Shown here piece by piece: positions 163 to 6,994 of a stretch of 6,994 nucleotides of DNA. Each line of letters begins with the position of its first letter. Position 1 is the first letter of the stretch. This stretch comes from Deltaproteobacteria bacterium (GTDB taxonomy: Bacteria > Desulfobacterota > Desulfobacteria > Desulfobacterales > ETH-SRB1). The DNA lies in the NCBI GenBank assembly GCA_019314185.1, contig JAFCZU010000164.1, positions 1 to 6,994 of the forward strand, written 5' to 3'. Under the pieces are notes generated by a model that saw only the letters and a list, made by a program, of their open reading frames with translations, had not been told where the DNA came from and did no database searches. A program made the translations under genes and the position numbers.

Positions 163-1278
163 TTATTGCCCCCTGACACACGATGCGGGAATTTCCAGAG
201 CTGGAGAGCGGCACTTCTTGCCACATAGCGGGTGACAAGCGTTTCTGCTGAATGACACCCAAACTTCATCGTTTACCTCGTAGTTCAACAAACGTCTTGT
301 AGTGGTTGCATACAGCTTCAAACCTGCAATATCGACTATAATCTTTAGTGCGGGACCGTTCTGAATTATGCCTGTGATTATTCCTCTTATCGAATTGTCC
401 CCTTTTTCTGAACCCAGGACCACATCCTCGGGATGGATACAAAGGTGGATTTTTTTCTTACGCTCGAATAGGGGATACTTTAGGGCGCTAATTTTAAAGG
501 GATTTGACCCATTGGTTATCTCAATTGTTGCTTCATCGCAGTTTAATCCGATGATCTGCCCCTTTAAAATATTCCTTACCCCGACGAATCTGGCCGCAAA
601 TTCTGTTTTAGGACGATAGAACACCTCATCCGGCGTGCCAATCTGTTGTATTTCTCCTTCATTCATGATAGCAATGTCATCTCCAATCACCATTGCCTCT
701 GTCAGATCGTGCGTTACATAAATTCCGGTTACACCAATATTTTTCAGAATATTTTTCAGTTCTTCACGTAATTTTTCCCTTAAAATCGGGTCTAAGGCAC
801 TTAATGGTTCGTCCAGGAGTAAAACATCCGGATTCATAACCAGTGCTCTGGCCAAGGCGATTCTCTGCTTCTGCCCTCCACTTAAGTGGGATGTTTTTTC
901 TTCCTTAAGGTCTTCAATTTCCAGTCTTTCCATTGTATTATGTACTCTGCTATTCACCTCATTTTTGGGCAACTCTCTTATTCTTAAGCCAAAGGCCACG
1001 TTCTCGAATACGTTTTTATGAGGGAATAGAGCGTAATCTTGAAAAACAAAGCCAATATTTCTCTCTTGAGGTTGCAAATCATTTATAACTTTATTGTTCA
1101 GCCTTATATCTCCGCTGTCTTGCCTTATTAATCCGGCTATTATTCTCAACTGAGTAGTTTTACCACATCCGCTTGCTCCCAAGAGCACCATTATTTCTCC
1201 GTCTGCCACACTCAGGCTGATGTCATGCAGCACAACTTTATTCTTGAATTTTTTAGCGATATTTATCAACTCAATCAT
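163..1278 (-). CDS. modC: Molybdate-type ABC importer ATP-binding protein (ModC-like) with CGKKC tail
   Basis: This 371-residue cytoplasmic ATPase energises the ModB-like permease encoded just upstream. Visible motifs: Walker A GASGCGKTT (34-42), Q-loop Gln80, signature LSGGQ (132-136), Walker B and catalytic Glu in DVLLLDEP (151-158), and H-loop His190. After FVGVRNILKG (about 231-240) comes a C-terminal domain of the TOBE/MOP kind, which in ModC proteins can bind oxyanion and act in regulation. The start ATG overlaps the permease stop in an ATGA junction, indicating translational coupling. An unusual tail HPLCGKKCRSP (349-359) is shared with the other ATPase in this window. The frame stops at TAA (165-163), but the next codons in the same frame read RCLNIIE and then stop, matching the RKCLNNIK end of the paralogue. 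The protein has therefore probably lost a short ancestral tail. Molybdate rather than tungstate is assumed from general resemblance. Confidence 0.9.
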   Translation of the reverse strand: MIELINIAKKFKNKVVLHDISLSVADGEIMVLLGASGCGKTTQLRIIAGLIRQDSGDIRLNNKVINDLQPQERNIGFVFQDYALFPHKNVFENVAFGLRIRELPKNEVNSRVHNTMERLEIEDLKEEKTSHLSGGQKQRIALARALVMNPDVLLLDEPLSALDPILREKLREELKNILKNIGVTGIYVTHDLTEAMVIGDDIAIMNEGEIQQIGTPDEVFYRPKTEFAARFVGVRNILKGQIIGLNCDEATIEITNGSNPFKISALKYPLFERKKKIHLCIHPEDVVLGSEKGDNSIRGIITGIIQNGPALKIIVDIAGLKLYATTTRRLLNYEVNDEVWVSFSRNACHPLCGKKCRSPALEIPASCVRGQ

Positions 1279-2063
1279 GATCTCGCGACCCTTTTAAATA
1301 TTATAAGTGTGGTGAAGGAAATTGCTATTAACACTAAGGAAAGTAAATTAGCCGTCTCTCTTTCCCCGCTTAAAGCATTGTTAAAAATCGCTAGCGGCAA
1401 AGTCACTAATAACCCGCTAACCATCATAGTAGCGCCAAACTCCCCTATAGCCCGAGCATACGCCATTACTATTCCGGACAGCACCCCTGTTTTTGATAAA
1501 GGCAAGATAACTTTCCAGAATATTTCAAACTCATGCGCTCCAAGCGTCTTTGCGGCATCAATCAGAGAAGGTTGAATGTCTTCCATTTTTGTTCTGGTAC
1601 TTCTAACAATAAAAGGTATGGCAACGAACGTTTGGGCGACGACGATTGCAAAGATCGTGAACATAATTGTAATCCCCAGTTTGTTGAGTGGATATCCAAT
1701 CAACCCATACCTTCCAAACGTTAGCAGGAGCAGGTATCCGGCTACACTCGGTGGCAATACAAAAGGAAGATTCACCATTGTATCCAGCACATCTTTCAGC
1801 GGAAAACTCTTGTACGTAAGCACGTAGGCGAGCGGAACCCCCACGAGTAAAGAAATCACGGTTGAAACCATGGCGGTTAGCACACTCAATATGATTGGAT
1901 TAACCACCGCTCCGGATAATAAAATTCTGAAATCCACCGGGCTCGAGAAAATATTAAATACCAGTGCCAGGAGCGGAAAAATGACCAACAGAGCAAACAC
2001 CAAAAAACTGAGGCCGCTTGAAAGCTTAAATCCGATATTCAGGTAATTACTACGGGTCAACAT
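1275..2063 (-). CDS. modB: Molybdate-type ABC importer permease (ModB-like)
   Basis: This inner-membrane permease (about 262 residues) has several hydrophobic segments and the EAA cytoplasmic loop that docks on the ATPase (DAAKTLGAHEFEIFWKVILP and the following residues, about 169-197, then AIGEFGATMMVSG). The RAIGEFGAT sequence is characteristic of ModB/CysT-type permeases. I chose ATG 2063 because AGGAG (2073-2069) lies 5 bases upstream. An alternative GTG at 2090 would add 9 residues and overlap the binding-protein stop as GTGA, but has no clear ribosome site. The gene lies between the permuted ModA-like gene and the modC-like gene and overlaps the latter by 4 bases, so the three form one operon. 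Confidence 0.9.
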   Translation of the reverse strand: MLTRSNYLNIGFKLSSGLSFLVFALLVIFPLLALVFNIFSSPVDFRILLSGAVVNPIILSVLTAMVSTVISLLVGVPLAYVLTYKSFPLKDVLDTMVNLPFVLPPSVAGYLLLLTFGRYGLIGYPLNKLGITIMFTIFAIVVAQTFVAIPFIVRSTRTKMEDIQPSLIDAAKTLGAHEFEIFWKVILPLSKTGVLSGIVMAYARAIGEFGATMMVSGLLVTLPLAIFNNALSGERETANLLSLVLIAISFTTLIIFKRVARS

Positions 2064-2086
2064 GTTCACTCCTACTTTCCCACGGT

Positions 2087-2905
2087 TCACTTCGGCACGA
2101 CTACAACCATTTCGTTACTGGCAAATACGCTGTAATCTATCACGAAGCCTTTTTCTGTGAGGATTTTCATGTGTTTCGGGCTGGCTGAGGCAAACACGTC
2201 AGCGCCGGCTTCACCGCTTACCGCTCCACCCTGTATTCGCTGTCTTAAAGAGCCGGAGCTTGCAAATAGCAGCTTTATCTCACCACCGGTCATCTTTTCG
2301 AATTCAGCAGCTATTGCTTCAAAGACACCGGTTAACGATGCTGCGGCATAAACAACAATAGTATCTTTGATCTCCTTCGGCGTGAAAGGTTCCGGATTAC
2401 TCACCCCGCCGATAAATCCGTAATCGGCGAGTATATCCTGCCCCTCTTTAAATAGTACAAATTTAATGAACTCAGAGGCTGCTTCTTTGTCATCGCTATC
2501 CTTTAAAACTGTGATCGGGTATTCCGGCACTACGTTAATTCCTTCAGGGATTGCTATAATCCTAACCCTTTCTCTTTCAGTGTAAGCGTCCGTTCGATAA
2601 ACAAACCCCGCATCAACTTCCCTTAAGACAACCTTGTCCAAAACAGCTCTGACGTGGATATCCTTGGAAACAATGTTGTTTGTAATCTTGCCGGCGAGAT
2701 CCGGATTAGTCTTTTCCAAATTAGAAAGAACATCCACTGCATACCTTCCAGCCGGAACATGCCCGGGGTTTCCGATAGAAATCTTTACTCCTTCCAGTCC
2801 CAAATCTTCGAATTTATCTATTTTTACCTCGTTTTTCTCGACACATCCCACGGTCAGCACGGCAAACACTATCACGAACAATCCGACGATAAACACTTTT
2901 CTCAT
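2087..2905 (-). CDS. modA: Circularly permuted ModA-like oxyanion-binding lipoprotein
   Basis: This 272-residue periplasmic binding protein of the molybdate family has its halves in swapped order. Residues 1-21 form a lipoprotein signal (hydrophobic stretch, then LTVGC with Cys21). Residues about 24-165 (VKIDKFEDLG, GNPGHVPAGRYA, DAGFVYRTDA, ending ILADYGFIG) match what is normally the C-terminal half of ModA. A linker (about 166-181, proline-rich) follows. Residues 182-272 match the normal N-terminal half: TIVVYAAASLTGVFEAI, LLFASSGSLRQRI, GADVFASASPKHM, and NEMVVVVPK, where the protein ends. In ordinary ModA, VVPK runs straight into the segment that here begins the mature protein. Expected ligand regions are all present: Ser190 in AAASLT, Ser216/217 in ASSGS, PAG at 51-53, and Tyr103. 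The segment GGAVSGEAGADVF has a few more residues than the usual GAPADVF. ATG has an AGAGGGG site upstream. The stop touches the modB region, so co-expression is likely. Both halves being intact argues for a working protein rather than a remnant. Confidence 0.88.
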   Translation of the reverse strand: MRKVFIVGLFVIVFAVLTVGCVEKNEVKIDKFEDLGLEGVKISIGNPGHVPAGRYAVDVLSNLEKTNPDLAGKITNNIVSKDIHVRAVLDKVVLREVDAGFVYRTDAYTERERVRIIAIPEGINVVPEYPITVLKDSDDKEAASEFIKFVLFKEGQDILADYGFIGGVSNPEPFTPKEIKDTIVVYAAASLTGVFEAIAAEFEKMTGGEIKLLFASSGSLRQRIQGGAVSGEAGADVFASASPKHMKILTEKGFVIDYSVFASNEMVVVVPK

Positions 2906-2932
2906 TTTGTACCCCTCTAAAAATTCGTATTC

Positions 2933-3391
2933 TCAAAAGTTTTTACGCAGGCAAGTCAACTGCGTTGATGCCCATTTTTGTTTTTTATAAAAGCCGAGCG
3001 CATGAAAATTATTTCTGTCAGCGAGAAGCTGAATCCTTTTTGCGCCCTTTTTATTCGTCCACTTTTCGATCGACAGTAATAGTTTTTTGCCTATGCCCTG
3101 TCCTCGATATAATTTGGCGACGACCATATCCTCGATTAATGCAACCATTCCCCCTTCAGCCGTTGAAACAAGCAGTTGAGCACTGATCATCCCTATGACT
3201 TGTTCCCCTGAAGCGGCAACCATGATGCAACCTTTTTCATTATCGCCAAGCATCACGGCAAGCCCGTTTCGCTGGGTCGTCTCGTTAAATGCAAAATCCT
3301 CCTCTATGGAAAACAATTCTTCAAGAAGACCGACCATTTGATTTATGTCGGAAAGCCCGGCTTTTCTTATGATAATAGAATGGAAAGTCAT
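2933..3391 (-). CDS. GNAT-family N-acetyltransferase
   Basis: This 152-residue cytoplasmic enzyme is predicted to transfer acetyl from acetyl-CoA to an amine; the substrate is unknown. The acetyl-CoA pyrophosphate-binding motif A is clear: MVVAKLYRGQGIGKKLL, with RGQGIG at 96-101. The usual closing region NNFHALGFYKKQKW (127-140) is also present, and the length is typical for a single-domain GNAT. ATG 3391 is preceded by AGAGG at a spacing of 7. It begins 13 bases after the ferredoxin stop and ends 27 bases before the ModA-like start, so it is almost certainly in the same operon. Nothing in the sequence identifies its target. Position alone would suggest a role linked to the ferredoxin or transporter, which is inference. 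Confidence 0.88.
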   Translation of the reverse strand: MTFHSIIIRKAGLSDINQMVGLLEELFSIEEDFAFNETTQRNGLAVMLGDNEKGCIMVAASGEQVIGMISAQLLVSTAEGGMVALIEDMVVAKLYRGQGIGKKLLLSIEKWTNKKGAKRIQLLADRNNFHALGFYKKQKWASTQLTCLRKNF

Positions 3392-3404
3392 TTTTTTGCC
3401 TCTA

Positions 3405-3710
3405 TCAGCTCAATAGATACTCTTCAGCGGCTACACCGTCTTCCAGAGCATCCAGAATTTCATCAATTATATCTTCGCTTTCAACATTCCCATACCAGAA
3501 ATTTTCCGGATAAATAACCATTATAGACCCGTTGTCGCACTGTTTCATGCAGCCTGTGCTTGTAAGTAGCGCATCCATTCCCCTGTCGAGTATTTCGTTT
3601 TCTATGTAAGGTATGAAATCCGTAGAACCTTTTTTGTTACACTTACCCTTGATTTCCCCTGATGCCCTGAAACTTGAACAAACAAAAATATGACGTTTCG
3701 GTTTTTCCAT
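3405..3710 (-). CDS. 2Fe-2S ferredoxin, Shethna type (thioredoxin-like ferredoxin)
   Basis: This 101-residue soluble electron carrier has four cysteines spaced C-x12-C-x29-C-x3-C (Cys11, 24, 54, 58), the pattern of thioredoxin-fold 2Fe-2S ferredoxins. The opening EKPKRHIFVC, the TSTGCMKQCDNG loop and the IYPENFWYGNV stretch closely resemble the small 2Fe-2S (Shethna I) ferredoxin of Azotobacter vinelandii as I recall it (KPEFHIFIC, TTTGCLGPCQAG, IYPGAVMY), which is linked to nif genes. ATG 3710 is chosen over an upstream in-frame ATG at 3758 because GGAGG (3722-3718) lies 7 bases before it, and the extra residues would fall across a repeat. It is the first gene of the ferredoxin-GNAT-mod group. 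Its electron partner is not visible here. Confidence 0.9.
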   Translation of the reverse strand: MEKPKRHIFVCSSFRASGEIKGKCNKKGSTDFIPYIENEILDRGMDALLTSTGCMKQCDNGSIMVIYPENFWYGNVESEDIIDEILDALEDGVAAEEYLLS

Positions 3711-3717
3711 TATGATT

Positions 3718-3746
3718 CCTCCATGATATTTGATATATAAATTCAT
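3718..3746 (-). promoter_or_regulatory. AT-rich leader with ribosome site and possible promoter of the ferredoxin/mod operon
   Basis: Just before the ferredoxin is an AT-rich stretch (ATTTATATATCAAATATC on the minus strand) followed by GGAGG. TATATA-like hexamers could serve as a -10 element. No good -35 is seen at the expected spacing, because that region is occupied by a REP-like hairpin, and I see no sigma-54 type GG/GC element. The ribosome site is clear; the promoter is a weak guess. Confidence 0.25.
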
Positions 3747-3748
3747 CA

Positions 3749-3775
3749 GGGCAGACACACAGGTCTGCCCCTACA
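3749..3775 (-). repeat. REP-like hairpin, unit 1
   Basis: On the minus strand, TGTAG is followed by a hairpin with 8-base arms GGGCAGAC and GTCTGCCC around a 6-base loop. A GTAG tetranucleotide 5' of a palindrome is the hallmark of REP elements mobilised by RAYT (TnpA-REP) transposases. It pairs with the inverted unit at 3806-3832. The differences between the two units are compensatory, so stem pairing is preserved. The family is likely dispersed across the genome. Confidence 0.75.
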
Positions 3776-3861: not shown

Positions 3862-4410
3862 TTACATACACCCCATGCCAACTCCAGAACACTTCCTGTT
3901 GCATGCATCCACATCACGTCTGATCATATAATTCATACTGTGGCCTTCAAAAACCGCCTCAACAGCTTCTTCAATCAGCCCGTCGAGTTCAAGAATATCT
4001 ATTTTTTTTGATAAAACCTGCCTCGGGTTATTACCTGTGCCGTTCGTAAGAAGTATACTTTCCCGCGCTCTCGTCATTACCCATGTTCTGTCCCGGCCCA
4101 GCTTATGTTCTATATGAATGTCTGAAACAGGGATCGAAAGCGCAATAACATCCGGCGACAGGGCTAACGTTTCTTCAATGTCTCCGGGAAGGCACCGGCA
4201 CCACAGTGCAAGTTTCGGGCACCCTGCAAGTTTTCCGGCTTTTTTGATGAGTTCCCTGGTCTCTGGGTTTTGCACTGCAATTCCCAGCTCTATCTCATCA
4301 ATGTCAACCTTTATGAGCAGATTGATGATGTGGAGCTTTTCTGTCAGGTCAAAATAGACGTGGGCTGCCTGTTCTCCTTCCCTCAATGTAGAGTCGATAA
4401 TTCCTTTCAC
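3862..4410 (-). CDS. Truncated NifV/LeuA-like protein with cysteine-rich tail
   Basis: This 182-residue protein resembles the first part of homocitrate synthase, which condenses acetyl-CoA with 2-oxoglutarate and supplies homocitrate for the nitrogenase cofactor. Residues 1 to about 115 align with NifV by eye: IIDSTLREGEQ at the start, then WCRCLPGD, SIPVSDIHIEHKLGRDRTW. The rest of the barrel, with the family's HxH metal ligands, and the C-terminal domain are absent. Instead there is an unrecognised segment (about 116-160) and a tail DACNRKCSGVGMGCM with three cysteines. Full-length NifV is about 380 residues. GTG 4410 is chosen because GAGGAG (4424-4419) lies 8 bases before it; GTG 4419 would overlap that site. 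It begins 12 bases after the ATPase stop. Catalysis by this protein alone is doubtful. It may need a partner, as with the split NifV of Clostridium pasteurianum, or have a new role. Confidence 0.75.
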   Translation of the reverse strand: MKGIIDSTLREGEQAAHVYFDLTEKLHIINLLIKVDIDEIELGIAVQNPETRELIKKAGKLAGCPKLALWCRCLPGDIEETLALSPDVIALSIPVSDIHIEHKLGRDRTWVMTRARESILLTNGTGNNPRQVLSKKIDILELDGLIEEAVEAVFEGHSMNYMIRRDVDACNRKCSGVGMGCM

Positions 4411-4444
4411 TTTGGTCACTCCTCACTTAATGTTATTAAGGCAT
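4285..4444 (-). repeat. Direct repeat, copy 2 (start of NifV-like gene and end of ATPase gene)
   Basis: This is the counterpart of bases 1-160, in the same orientation and gap-free. Here the repeat includes the last codons of the ATPase (CLNNIK and stop), the GAGGAG ribosome site and the first 42 codons of the NifV-like gene. Substitutions are scattered and many are synonymous, which fits an older duplication or gene conversion with coding constraint. Confidence 0.85.
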
Positions 4445-5544
4445 TTTCTCCGCTGCTCCGGTTCTCTGCATTTTTTGCCGCATAACGGATGAGGCGCATC
4501 CGGGGCAAAGCAAACCAAAACATTTTCGTATGTATTAAAATCAAAAAGATCTTTTGGGATCGCGGCATGCAGCTCCATGCCGCCAGTGTCAATCGTTGCC
4601 TTTAAGCCATTGCCGTTGTTTGTTTTATTTACTATTTTCCCCCTAATTTGATTCAAGTTGGCGTTAACTACTTCACTTTCTCTTTTTAGAGTAATTTTTT
4701 CCGGATGGATGCACAGGTTGATCTCTTTGCCTTTTTCGAAAATAGGATATTTTTTAACTCTAATTTTAACAGGTTGACCCAGGCCGTCATTATTGACTTG
4801 TACAACGGCTTCATGCTGATTTATTTCTATTACGCGTGCTTTTAAAATATTTTTAGCTCCGACAAAACGGGCTACAAACTTGGTTTTGGGATGATAAAAC
4901 AGTTCATCAGGGGATTCGATCTGCTCTACTTTCCCCTTATTAACTACCGAAACACGATCCCCCAGGAAAAAGGCTTCGCCATGGTTGTGGGTAACATAGA
5001 TTGTGGTTACTCCCATTTTTTGCTGAATATTTTTAAATTCACCTCCTATTTTCTCTCTCGTCAAAACATCCAGGTCACTCATAGGCTCATCCAGGAGCAA
5101 TACTTTTGGAGAGGGCGCAAGTGCCCTGGCCAGGGCTACTCGCTGCTTTTCTCCACCGCTCAAATCTTTGGGGTATCTCCGGGCAAGGTCACGGATATTC
5201 ATCAAATTTAACATTTCATCCAGCCTGGCCTCAATCTCATGGACGCGCCTTTTTTGTATCTTCAATCCATAGGTGATATTAGAGACTACATCAAGGTGAG
5301 GAAACAGGGCTAAATCCTGGAATAAGTAACCGACGCCCCTCCGGTTAACCGGGATCTCATCCACCGGCACCCCATCGAATAGTACCGATCCCTCGTACTC
5401 GATCAATCCAGACAGGATGTTTAGCAAGGTTGTTTTGCCGGCGCCGGTCGGTCCCAAGAGAACCATAAGCTCGCCGCTTGCTATGTTTAAGCTTATATTA
5501 CGACAGATAAAATTGCTGATATTTTTCAGCTCTATAGCGGGCAT
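4423..5544 (-). CDS. ABC importer ATP-binding protein, ModC-like, with CGKKC tail (NitT/TauT-type system)
   Basis: This 373-residue ATPase is encoded directly behind a SsuC/TauC-type permease. Motifs: Walker A GPTGAGKTT (31-39), Q-loop Gln76, signature LSGGE (128-132), Walker B with Glu in VLLLDEP (148-154), D-loop SDLD, and H-loop His186. ATPases of NitT/TauT systems (SsuB, TauB, NrtD) are usually about 250 residues and stop after this domain. This one continues with a ModC/PotA-like C-terminal domain starting near FVGAKNILKA (227-236) and ends in HPLCGKKCREPEQRRKC (Cys355, 359, 368). It is paralogous to the ATPase at 163-1278 over its whole length. ATG 5544 has GGAG upstream, overlapping the region of the permease stop, so translation is probably coupled. 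Either the permease recruited a ModC-type motor or both derive from a shared anaerobe-specific family. The substrate is unknown. Confidence 0.87.
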   Translation of the reverse strand: MPAIELKNISNFICRNISLNIASGELMVLLGPTGAGKTTLLNILSGLIEYEGSVLFDGVPVDEIPVNRRGVGYLFQDLALFPHLDVVSNITYGLKIQKRRVHEIEARLDEMLNLMNIRDLARRYPKDLSGGEKQRVALARALAPSPKVLLLDEPMSDLDVLTREKIGGEFKNIQQKMGVTTIYVTHNHGEAFFLGDRVSVVNKGKVEQIESPDELFYHPKTKFVARFVGAKNILKARVIEINQHEAVVQVNNDGLGQPVKIRVKKYPIFEKGKEINLCIHPEKITLKRESEVVNANLNQIRGKIVNKTNNGNGLKATIDTGGMELHAAIPKDLFDFNTYENVLVCFAPDAPHPLCGKKCREPEQRRKCLNNIK

Positions 5545-5545
5545 A

Positions 5546-6298
5546 TTATCTCCATTTGTGAGTCAACCTGTGCTCCATGTAGATGAAGAATCTCTCAAAG
5601 GATAGACACATCACCGACAAAACTATCAAGCATACTATGACAATATCTATCCTGATCAAACTTTCGGCCCTCATGAGCAACGCCCCGATGCCGGTTGGAA
5701 TGGCTACCATCTCAGCGGCTATTATTACCCGCCAGGCCATCCCCGCCTCCAGTCTCAAACCGGTAAATATATTGGAAAGAGCGAGGGGCAAAAGTATGGT
5801 GCTCAAGATTTTTCTTTCAGATGCCCCCAGGGTCTTTGCAACCTTGACAAGGTTCTTATCTACGGTTTTGATACCGGTGACGGTGTTATAAAGCACAGGA
5901 AAGAATGAACAGATAAATATTATCATGATTGGAAGCATTTCACTTATTCCAAACCAGAGCATCAAAATGGGCAGCCAGCCCAAAGCGGGAATAGGGCAAA
6001 GCAGGCTAAATATCGGATGAAGTGTTCTATTTATAGTTTGCTTATAACCCATCAAAATGCCGATCAACAGACCGGCAATAGATCCAGTGGAAAAACCGAT
6101 CAAGACCCTGGCAAGGCTCCTCAAAAAGTTATCCGGCAGCACTCCGCTGGCCGTGAGATAATAAAATTCCTGTATCACCGTAGTAAAAGGCGGGAAAAAG
6201 AAGTGCCCGGGGATTAGTTCCAGCCGTGTTACGATCTCCCAGATTAATAGAAAAACTAATACAGGAATTAAGCTATAAGCGGCTTTTATCCTTTTCAT
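5546..6298 (-). CDS. NitT/TauT-family ABC importer permease (SsuC/TauC-like)
   Basis: This 250-residue inner-membrane permease belongs to the nitrate/sulfonate/taurine importer group. Visible features: an N-terminal hydrophobic helix (about 8-20), FFFPPFTTVIQEF (33-45), typical of SsuC/TauC proteins, PIPALGWLPILMLWFGIS (102-119), and the EAA coupling loop (VAKTLGASERKILSTILLP, about 153-171, then LRLEAGMAWRVIIAAEM). Length is normal for the family. Its ATG overlaps the binding-protein stop as ATGA, and its own stop lies one base before the ATPase start. All three genes are therefore translated as one unit. Sequence does not reveal the substrate; small anions, sulfonates, and pyrimidine or thiamine precursors are all carried by relatives. 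Confidence 0.92.
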   Translation of the reverse strand: MKRIKAAYSLIPVLVFLLIWEIVTRLELIPGHFFFPPFTTVIQEFYYLTASGVLPDNFLRSLARVLIGFSTGSIAGLLIGILMGYKQTINRTLHPIFSLLCPIPALGWLPILMLWFGISEMLPIMIIFICSFFPVLYNTVTGIKTVDKNLVKVAKTLGASERKILSTILLPLALSNIFTGLRLEAGMAWRVIIAAEMVAIPTGIGALLMRAESLIRIDIVIVCLIVLSVMCLSFERFFIYMEHRLTHKWR

Positions 6299-6994
6299 TT
6301 GATAAACCCCGTTAATTCAATAAAATCCTCGGCTTTAAATGATTTCTTTATGTATTCTAATTCCACGCAGGTATCTATCGCTTTCTGGATTTCTTTCTGG
6401 TCAATATCAGTGGTATTAACCAGTCTTACCGTTAATGATTTTAATATCGGCGTGGGAGTAATCATAAGTTTGGAAGCTACATCAATAGCTTTAACAGGGA
6501 ATATCTTTTTCCCGGCAACCTGTAATCCTCCGGCAACAATTTCTGCTGCTTCTTCAGGATGACTATTGATAAATTGTGTCGCTCGCTCAGTAACATTTAC
6601 CAATTTTTTCACTATGTCAGGATACTCCTTTATGAGTTCTTCCCTTACCACCAAAACACTGCCCTGCATATTGGGCCAGAGGTCTTGGGCGGTTAAAAAT
6701 ACTCTAAACCCTAATTCCTCTGCCATAGTGGGAAATTGTTCACAAATAAAGGCCGCATCCAATTGACCCATTTTGAGGGCAAGAAGCAGTTTGGGCGGAT
6801 TCATCCTTCTGACTTTTTTTAATATCTGCTTTTTATCCAGGTGATATTTTTCTATCATTTTATGCAGAAGCGCATCAAGGGGACTGCCTTCTCGACTGCA
6901 TCCAATACGAATCCCTTCCTTTTTCAGGTCGTCGATAGTCTTGACTCTGTCAGGGTTAACAACAAAACCATAGCCGTATTTATGGATTCCGGCT
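6295..6994 (-). CDS. NitT/TauT-type ABC importer substrate-binding protein (SsuA/NMT1-like), 5' end outside the window
   Basis: The frame stays open upstream of the internal ATG at 6858 to the right edge (reading GIHKYGYGFVVNPDRVKTID, then LKKEGIRIGCSREGSPLDAL), so the true start and signal peptide are missing. About 233 residues are visible. TIDDLKKEGIRIGCSREGSP matches the 'DLKGKKIGV...GS' core of NMT1/SsuA-like proteins. Further on come PPKLLLALKMGQLDAAFICEQFPTMAEELG (in two parts, ligand-cleft region) and VVREELIKEYPDIVKKLVNVTERATQFINSHPEEAAEIV, the latter a very common closing pattern in this family. It delivers an unknown solute to the permease encoded next, with which it overlaps by an ATGA junction. 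No nitrate- or taurine-specific residue can be read from this part. Confidence 0.88.
   Translation of the reverse strand, partial: AGIHKYGYGFVVNPDRVKTIDDLKKEGIRIGCSREGSPLDALLHKMIEKYHLDKKQILKKVRRMNPPKLLLALKMGQLDAAFICEQFPTMAEELGFRVFLTAQDLWPNMQGSVLVVREELIKEYPDIVKKLVNVTERATQFINSHPEEAAEIVAGGLQVAGKKIFPVKAIDVASKLMITPTPILKSLTVRLVNTTDIDQKEIQKAIDTCVELEYIKKSFKAEDFIELTGFIK

Follow-up and report, generated by a model that had tools for sequence, protein, structure and literature searches.

A probable natural circular permutant of ModA heading a modABC operon

The modA gene and the order of its halves

The stretch of DNA analysed here (the window, 6,994 nucleotides (nt); contig JAFCZU010000164.1 of the Deltaproteobacteria bacterium assembly GCA_019314185.1) carries on its reverse (-) strand a modABC operon, headed by a modA gene in which the two halves of the encoded binding protein are interchanged. 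This gene (2087..2905) starts with ATG and encodes 272 amino acids (aa) in a single open reading frame. Residues 1-21 (2843..2905) form a signal peptide ending in the lipobox LTVGC, with Cys21 as the lipoprotein anchor. The C-half of canonical ModA follows, with its VPAG, VRAVL and GFVY sites (residues about 28-164; 2414..2824), and then a confidently modelled linker between the old C-terminus and the old N-terminus (residues about 165-181; 2363..2413). The N-half, with the AAASLT and FASSGSL sites and the final strand EMVVVVPK, closes the chain (residues 182-272; 2090..2362). Directly downstream, the modB permease gene (1275..2090; TIGR02141, 202.8 bits against a cut-off of 182.6) overlaps the end of modA by 4 nt if its GTG start is used, an alternative ATG lying at 2063. 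The ATG of the modC-type ATPase gene (163..1278) in turn overlaps the modB stop; its product is WtpC/PotA-like, falls below the equivalog cut-offs including that of modC, and ends in the Cys tail HPLCGKKC. The intact mod operon noted in a first-pass annotation of the sequence is thus confirmed.

The same annotation had proposed that the halves are swapped, which comparisons with Pfam, NCBIfam and the PDB bear out. The modA profile TIGR01256 matches the whole protein with 142.8 bits (cut-off 62.5, E 1.4e-41) in two stretches of swapped order, the better of which aligns residues 21-163 with profile positions 83-217. PF13531 (E 2.6e-49) also matches in two stretches, the best placing residues 17-164 on positions 81-226, while residues about 181-271 are covered by the first 86-90 positions of PF01547 and NF002918. 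In the alignment with E. coli ModA (3r26), residues 37-164 pair with chain 114-234, and chain 8-95 follows at residues 182-272. Since the gene runs C-half then N-half instead of the linear ModA order, we describe it as a permuted variant and not as a standard TIGR01256 member. Both blocks are cyclically shifted with a linker between the old ends, the arrangement of a natural circular permutant. These E-values, together with the same order in 101 other proteins, exclude a chance origin of the block order. We therefore conclude, with a probability of roughly 0.9, that the gene product is a natural circular permutant of ModA and the lipid-anchored binding protein of this operon's modABC importer.

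Predicted fold, oxyanion site and the new chain ends

A structure prediction, proposed earlier as a check, yielded a confident AlphaFold2 model of the protein (predicted local distance difference test, pLDDT, 93.3; predicted template modelling score, pTM, 0.82), and both the model and its comparison with the PDB predict the two-lobe type II fold. The canonical ModA structures among the matches listed align to the first half of the model only; for 1wod, chain 94-233 aligns with residues 26-167 only. All five oxyanion-site equivalents (S190, S217, A52, V85 and Y103) are present, so the earlier statement that the ligand-binding regions survive holds; the assignment presumes the E. coli ModA numbering of the site residues. 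The permuted ModA would thus fold as an ordinary two-lobe receptor, use the same site residues to enclose molybdate (or tungstate) and pass the ion to ModBC.

In comparison with known receptors, the protein shares with ModA (TIGR01256, substrate-binding protein cluster D-IIIa; E. coli 1amf/1wod, P. aeruginosa 7t4z) both halves, the site residues, the modB and modC-type partners and the predicted lobes, but differs in the swapped halves, the linker at the old ends and the probable location of termini and anchor on lobe B. The tungstate-binding proteins WtpA and TupA are likewise oxyanion receptors of the same fold and give weak profile matches; however, they have the canonical order and their curated cut-offs are not reached (29.1 bits against 242.75 for WtpA, TIGR03730). 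The best whole-chain structural match is PstS2 of S. pneumoniae (SP_2084, 4h1x), which, as far as the compared part of its sequence goes, appears to have the same permuted order, although it is annotated as phosphate-binding and only about 15% identical.

This last match, with its phosphate annotation, raises the question of whether the permuted protein has changed its job and serves as a receptor for another oxyanion (tungstate, phosphate or sulfate) or as a sensor. Among 112 permuted rows (102 database proteins and 10 loci, four of which are identical to database rows), the equivalents of S217 and V85 are kept in 112/112, Y103 in 111/112 and A52 in 108/112, while the fifth position, that of S190, is Val in Tharpella-type rows, which would also suit such a change. 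In Methanotorris igneus, moreover, the permuted gene neighbours a formylmethanofuran dehydrogenase subunit gene and MoeA-type genes, where tungsten is a possible ligand. Nevertheless, all five equivalents in the window protein are as in E. coli ModA, modB and a modC-type gene directly follow, and some relatives have nif contexts, which renders a changed job unlikely. The permuted ModA is likely the working receptor.

The first-pass annotation had placed the cut at the hinge crossing between the lobes and had the lipid anchor relocated to that hinge. In P. aeruginosa ModA, the first hinge is Gly104-Thr105 (PMC9171197). Its equivalent in the model would be at about N264-E265, with the predicted strands 259-263 and 266-271 lying on either side, and the chain would end about 7 residues beyond it, after a strand expected in lobe B. 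The cut is therefore near the hinge but not exactly at it, and the anchor has moved, though seemingly to lobe B and not to the hinge itself. Both hinge crossings would be retained, and the membrane tether would shift with the termini from lobe A to lobe B. A permutation that turns a two-hinge into a one-hinge protein was considered and rejected, because the cut lies about 7 residues beyond the hinge and the last strand is still expected to reach lobe B.

A family of permuted relatives and its origin

The union of the best 120 matches from each of three protein searches comprised 256 distinct proteins, in which a script located both halves by profile. It assigned permuted order to 102, canonical order to 153 and left one fragment (P0059) undecided; two of the canonical calls are odd, namely the tandem protein P0209 and the class-2-like fragment P0124, giving a cleaner canonical count of 151. 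The first 120 divide cleanly into P0001-P0063 (62 permuted and the fragment) and P0064-P0120 (57 canonical). The relatives of the same order that the first-pass annotation had suggested looking for thus number 101 among the proteins examined, and the gene belongs to a family instead of being a single case. Permuted order occurs in Methanococcales, other archaea, Firmicutes-type genomes and Candidatus Tharpella relatives; named members are M. igneus (P0011), Methanococcus aeolicus (P0015), archaeon BMS3Abin16 (P0055), Peptococcaceae (P0017 and P0019) and a Thermodesulfovibrionales bacterium (P0002). The M. maripaludis ModA P0157 is canonical, and PMC2723118 names further ModA genes of this species. 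The permuted P0006 (336 aa) lies behind a NifH-like N-terminus, a deletion fusion or an artefact.

Genome searches found full-length permuted matches in 7/394 relatives of genome G006, 4/298 relatives of G002 and 14/198 relatives of G009 (Candidatus Tharpella), and, among the matches listed, in 2/398 genomes of the G002 phylum (G002 and G1036). Counted once each, and with G001 included, at least 27 genomes carry one, so the permutation is inherited in independent genomes. Two of the copies are imperfect: the G698 match has an internal TAG, and the N-terminus of the G132 gene lies in another frame of a draft genome. In G385 the gene sits inside a single contig of 1,854,197 base pairs (bp) and encodes a protein identical to M. 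igneus P0011, and in G072 it sits in a single contig of 1,569,500 bp, with a product identical to P0015.

These genomes bear on the possibility that two modA fragments were misjoined during assembly or binning and that the real genome holds a normal modA. The nearest relatives are metagenome-assembled genomes (MAGs), and the window gene is a mosaic relative to the related locus L001: from 2360 to 1061, 11 of 13 100-nt windows are at least 91% identical and the other two 86 and 90%, so that tract 1061-2360 is mostly 91-96% identical to L001, compared with 74-89% for its flanks within modABC. Synonymous divergence (dS) from L001 is accordingly 0.66 for the C-half, as against 0.06 for the N-half. 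This mosaic inside modA may reflect recombination or an assembly chimera, but both of its sides derive from permuted genes, and the half order is therefore unaffected. A general artefact is excluded by the single 1,854,197-bp contig of M. igneus. With the same order in 101 other proteins, in single-contig genomes and in 27 genomes with full-length copies, with a consistent linker and breakpoint, the protein's own signal peptide and the purifying selection described below, we regard a misjoin as exceedingly improbable.

The permuted proteins fall into two breakpoint classes. Class 1, which includes the window gene, comprises 93/102 and ends after the strand VVVVPK, restarting at KIDKFEDLG. Class 2 (9/102; P0054, P0057, P0058, P0060, P0062, P0063 and P0121-P0123) is cut about 28 residues earlier, starting with ..DYNIFAKNELVVVIP and ending with ..ADMKNMLDLAK. 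The alignment of 1wod with a class 2 model (residues 25-191 to chain 66-233) agrees with this earlier cut. By pattern, a lipobox is present in 81/93 class 1 and 0/9 class 2 proteins; in most of the 12 class 1 failures a Cys is present but its surroundings deviate slightly, and the N-terminus is fused, extended or absent in P0006, P0238, P0023 and P0244. Cys21 is invariant in 54/54 class 1 sequences of alignment A1, which leaves out P0006 and P0023 for their odd N-termini. No class 2 host was found among the matches listed in the 398 genomes of the G002 phylum, the best being class 1 or split.

Trees were built with the halves restored to canonical order from 61 rows (35/112 permuted and 26/222 canonical sequences) and are unrooted. 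Class 1 (support 98/90), class 2 (100/98) and the canonical proteins form three separate groups, and permuted and canonical rows are divided with 98/92. The half-trees differ: the N-half alone unites all 35 permuted rows (97/96), whereas no single permuted clade emerges from the C-half alone. This difference would be expected if halves from two different binding proteins had been fused. However, a single clade is not rejected for the C-half (approximately unbiased test, p-AU 0.494), both halves are of the ModA type by TIGR01256, and they meet in one confident predicted fold, so that a fusion is very unlikely compared with the permutation of one ModA.

Whether the two classes go back to one event is less clear. 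Their breakpoints about 28 residues apart, the lack of a lipobox by pattern in 9/9 class 2 rows and the three separate groups of an unrooted tree would fit independent permutations. Every permuted row nevertheless stands opposite every canonical row (98/92), and while independent origins are a real possibility, we lean against them; the simplest course is one permutation followed by a later change of breakpoint. For WtpA and FbpA receptors, the best match puts the second block of the window protein at the chain start, and the canonical order is therefore taken as ancestral. The permutation would then go back to one or a few events, the simplest route being an in-frame tandem duplication of modA with subsequent loss of the outer parts, as already suggested in the first-pass annotation. 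Its plausibility is strengthened by P0209 (496 aa), in which canonical ModA occurs twice over, complete and in a single frame (N-C-N-C), so the proposed kind of intermediate exists. In anaerobic archaea and bacteria the permuted form would then have been passed on vertically and probably also by transfer.

Permutation is already known in the binding-protein fold (OpuAC group, 2b4l and 2b4m), as PMC2395249 reports that glycine betaine-binding proteins, molybdate-binding proteins and CysB are structurally related by permutation. Among the papers listed by searches of the open-access literature, none describes a natural ModA permutant, as judged by titles and the start of abstracts. A natural permutation traceable within one operon-bound family is, in our judgement, a rare chance: with its roughly one hundred members, its two breakpoints, its canonical counterpart and its tandem example, this family makes the duplication-and-trimming model directly testable. 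The permuted ModAs also offer ready-made receptors with lobe-B ends for sensors, and genes annotated as molybdate ABC transporter substrate-binding protein may hide an unusual topology, with linear tools splitting the match in two. Considering PstS2 as well, cutting an oxyanion receptor just past the first hinge, with the tether on lobe B, could be a favoured natural design found in ModA and a PstS-type protein, an idea that we put forward as doubtful. If it were true, tandem ModA-ModA, class 1 and class 2 would form a natural series of breakpoint birth and movement, which would show how a moved tether alters docking on ModBC.

Selection, genomic setting and other features of the window

The ratio of nonsynonymous to synonymous substitution rates (dN/dS) of the window modA is 0.28, 0.20, 0.21 and 0.19 against loci L001-L004, respectively, and saturated against L005, showing purifying selection on the permuted gene. 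Taken together with the sequence and the model, the permuted ModA is real and probably functional. In ten genomes searched with TIGR01256, mostly MAGs so that absence is unproven, the permuted copy is the sole strong full-length ModA; none of its stretches by itself reaches the cut-off in G009 or G010, and a single weak further match is present in each of G004, G009 and G010. Canonical copies accompany the permuted ones in M. igneus and M. aeolicus. In G003 (L091:403-672), the N-half of a canonical modA breaks off, and modB- and modC-like pieces (named by eye) come after it in different frames, an arrangement that looks like a decayed canonical mod locus in a genome with an intact permuted one.

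At L137 and L140, the permuted modABC comes after nif genes, with NifH over its cut-off and matches to NifD/K/E/N, NifB and NifV-like proteins below the equivalog cut-offs. L005 shows a similar arrangement (genes named by eye), with a NifD-like match on its contig, and in G051 the permuted copy lies directly after nif; M. aeolicus has a canonical modA near nif. NifD-like genes, none over the NifD equivalog cut-off, occur in 10/26 genomes examined: 9/9 of the window's group (G001-G005, G051, G072, G132 and G385), 1/3 of the BMS3Abin16 group and 0/14 of the Tharpella group, with groups set by similarity and the 61-row tree. In PMC9765008, a modA of M. thermolithotrophicus is induced in diazotrophy (log2 fold change 5.5); it may be a permuted copy, as after nif in G051, or a canonical one, as near nif in M. 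aeolicus. The general job is thus likely the supply of Mo or W, and within the window's clade the permuted ModA would go with nitrogen fixation, nitrogenase being a likely customer only there.

Scans of the window with Rfam and for tRNA genes found nothing, and a promoter and terminator scan of 2800-3500 gave nothing informative. The window also contains a 163-nt direct repeat, 85% identical between 1-163 and 4285-4447, each copy of which lies where an ATPase gene ends and a NifV-like frame begins; the region is thus apparently flanked by two related ATPase/NifV-like modules. The ATPases at 163-1278 and 4423-5544 share a C-terminal Cys tail (PLCGKKC or a near variant of it), also found in L001-L005, L135, L136 and L138, while the pattern missed the ATPases of L137 and L006-L010. 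The NifV-like frame at 3862-4419 is only 185 aa long and has a Cys-rich end (CNRKCSGVGMGC); its residues 7-128 correspond to residues 4-125 of a homocitrate synthase of 365. An odd mixed transporter at 4423-6993 combines a ModC/PotA-like ATPase, a TauC/SsuC/SaoP-type permease and an SsuA-type binding protein, and the frame at 3405-3758 gives a weak, below-cut-off match to 2Fe-2S ferredoxins of the clostridial and Azotobacter type.
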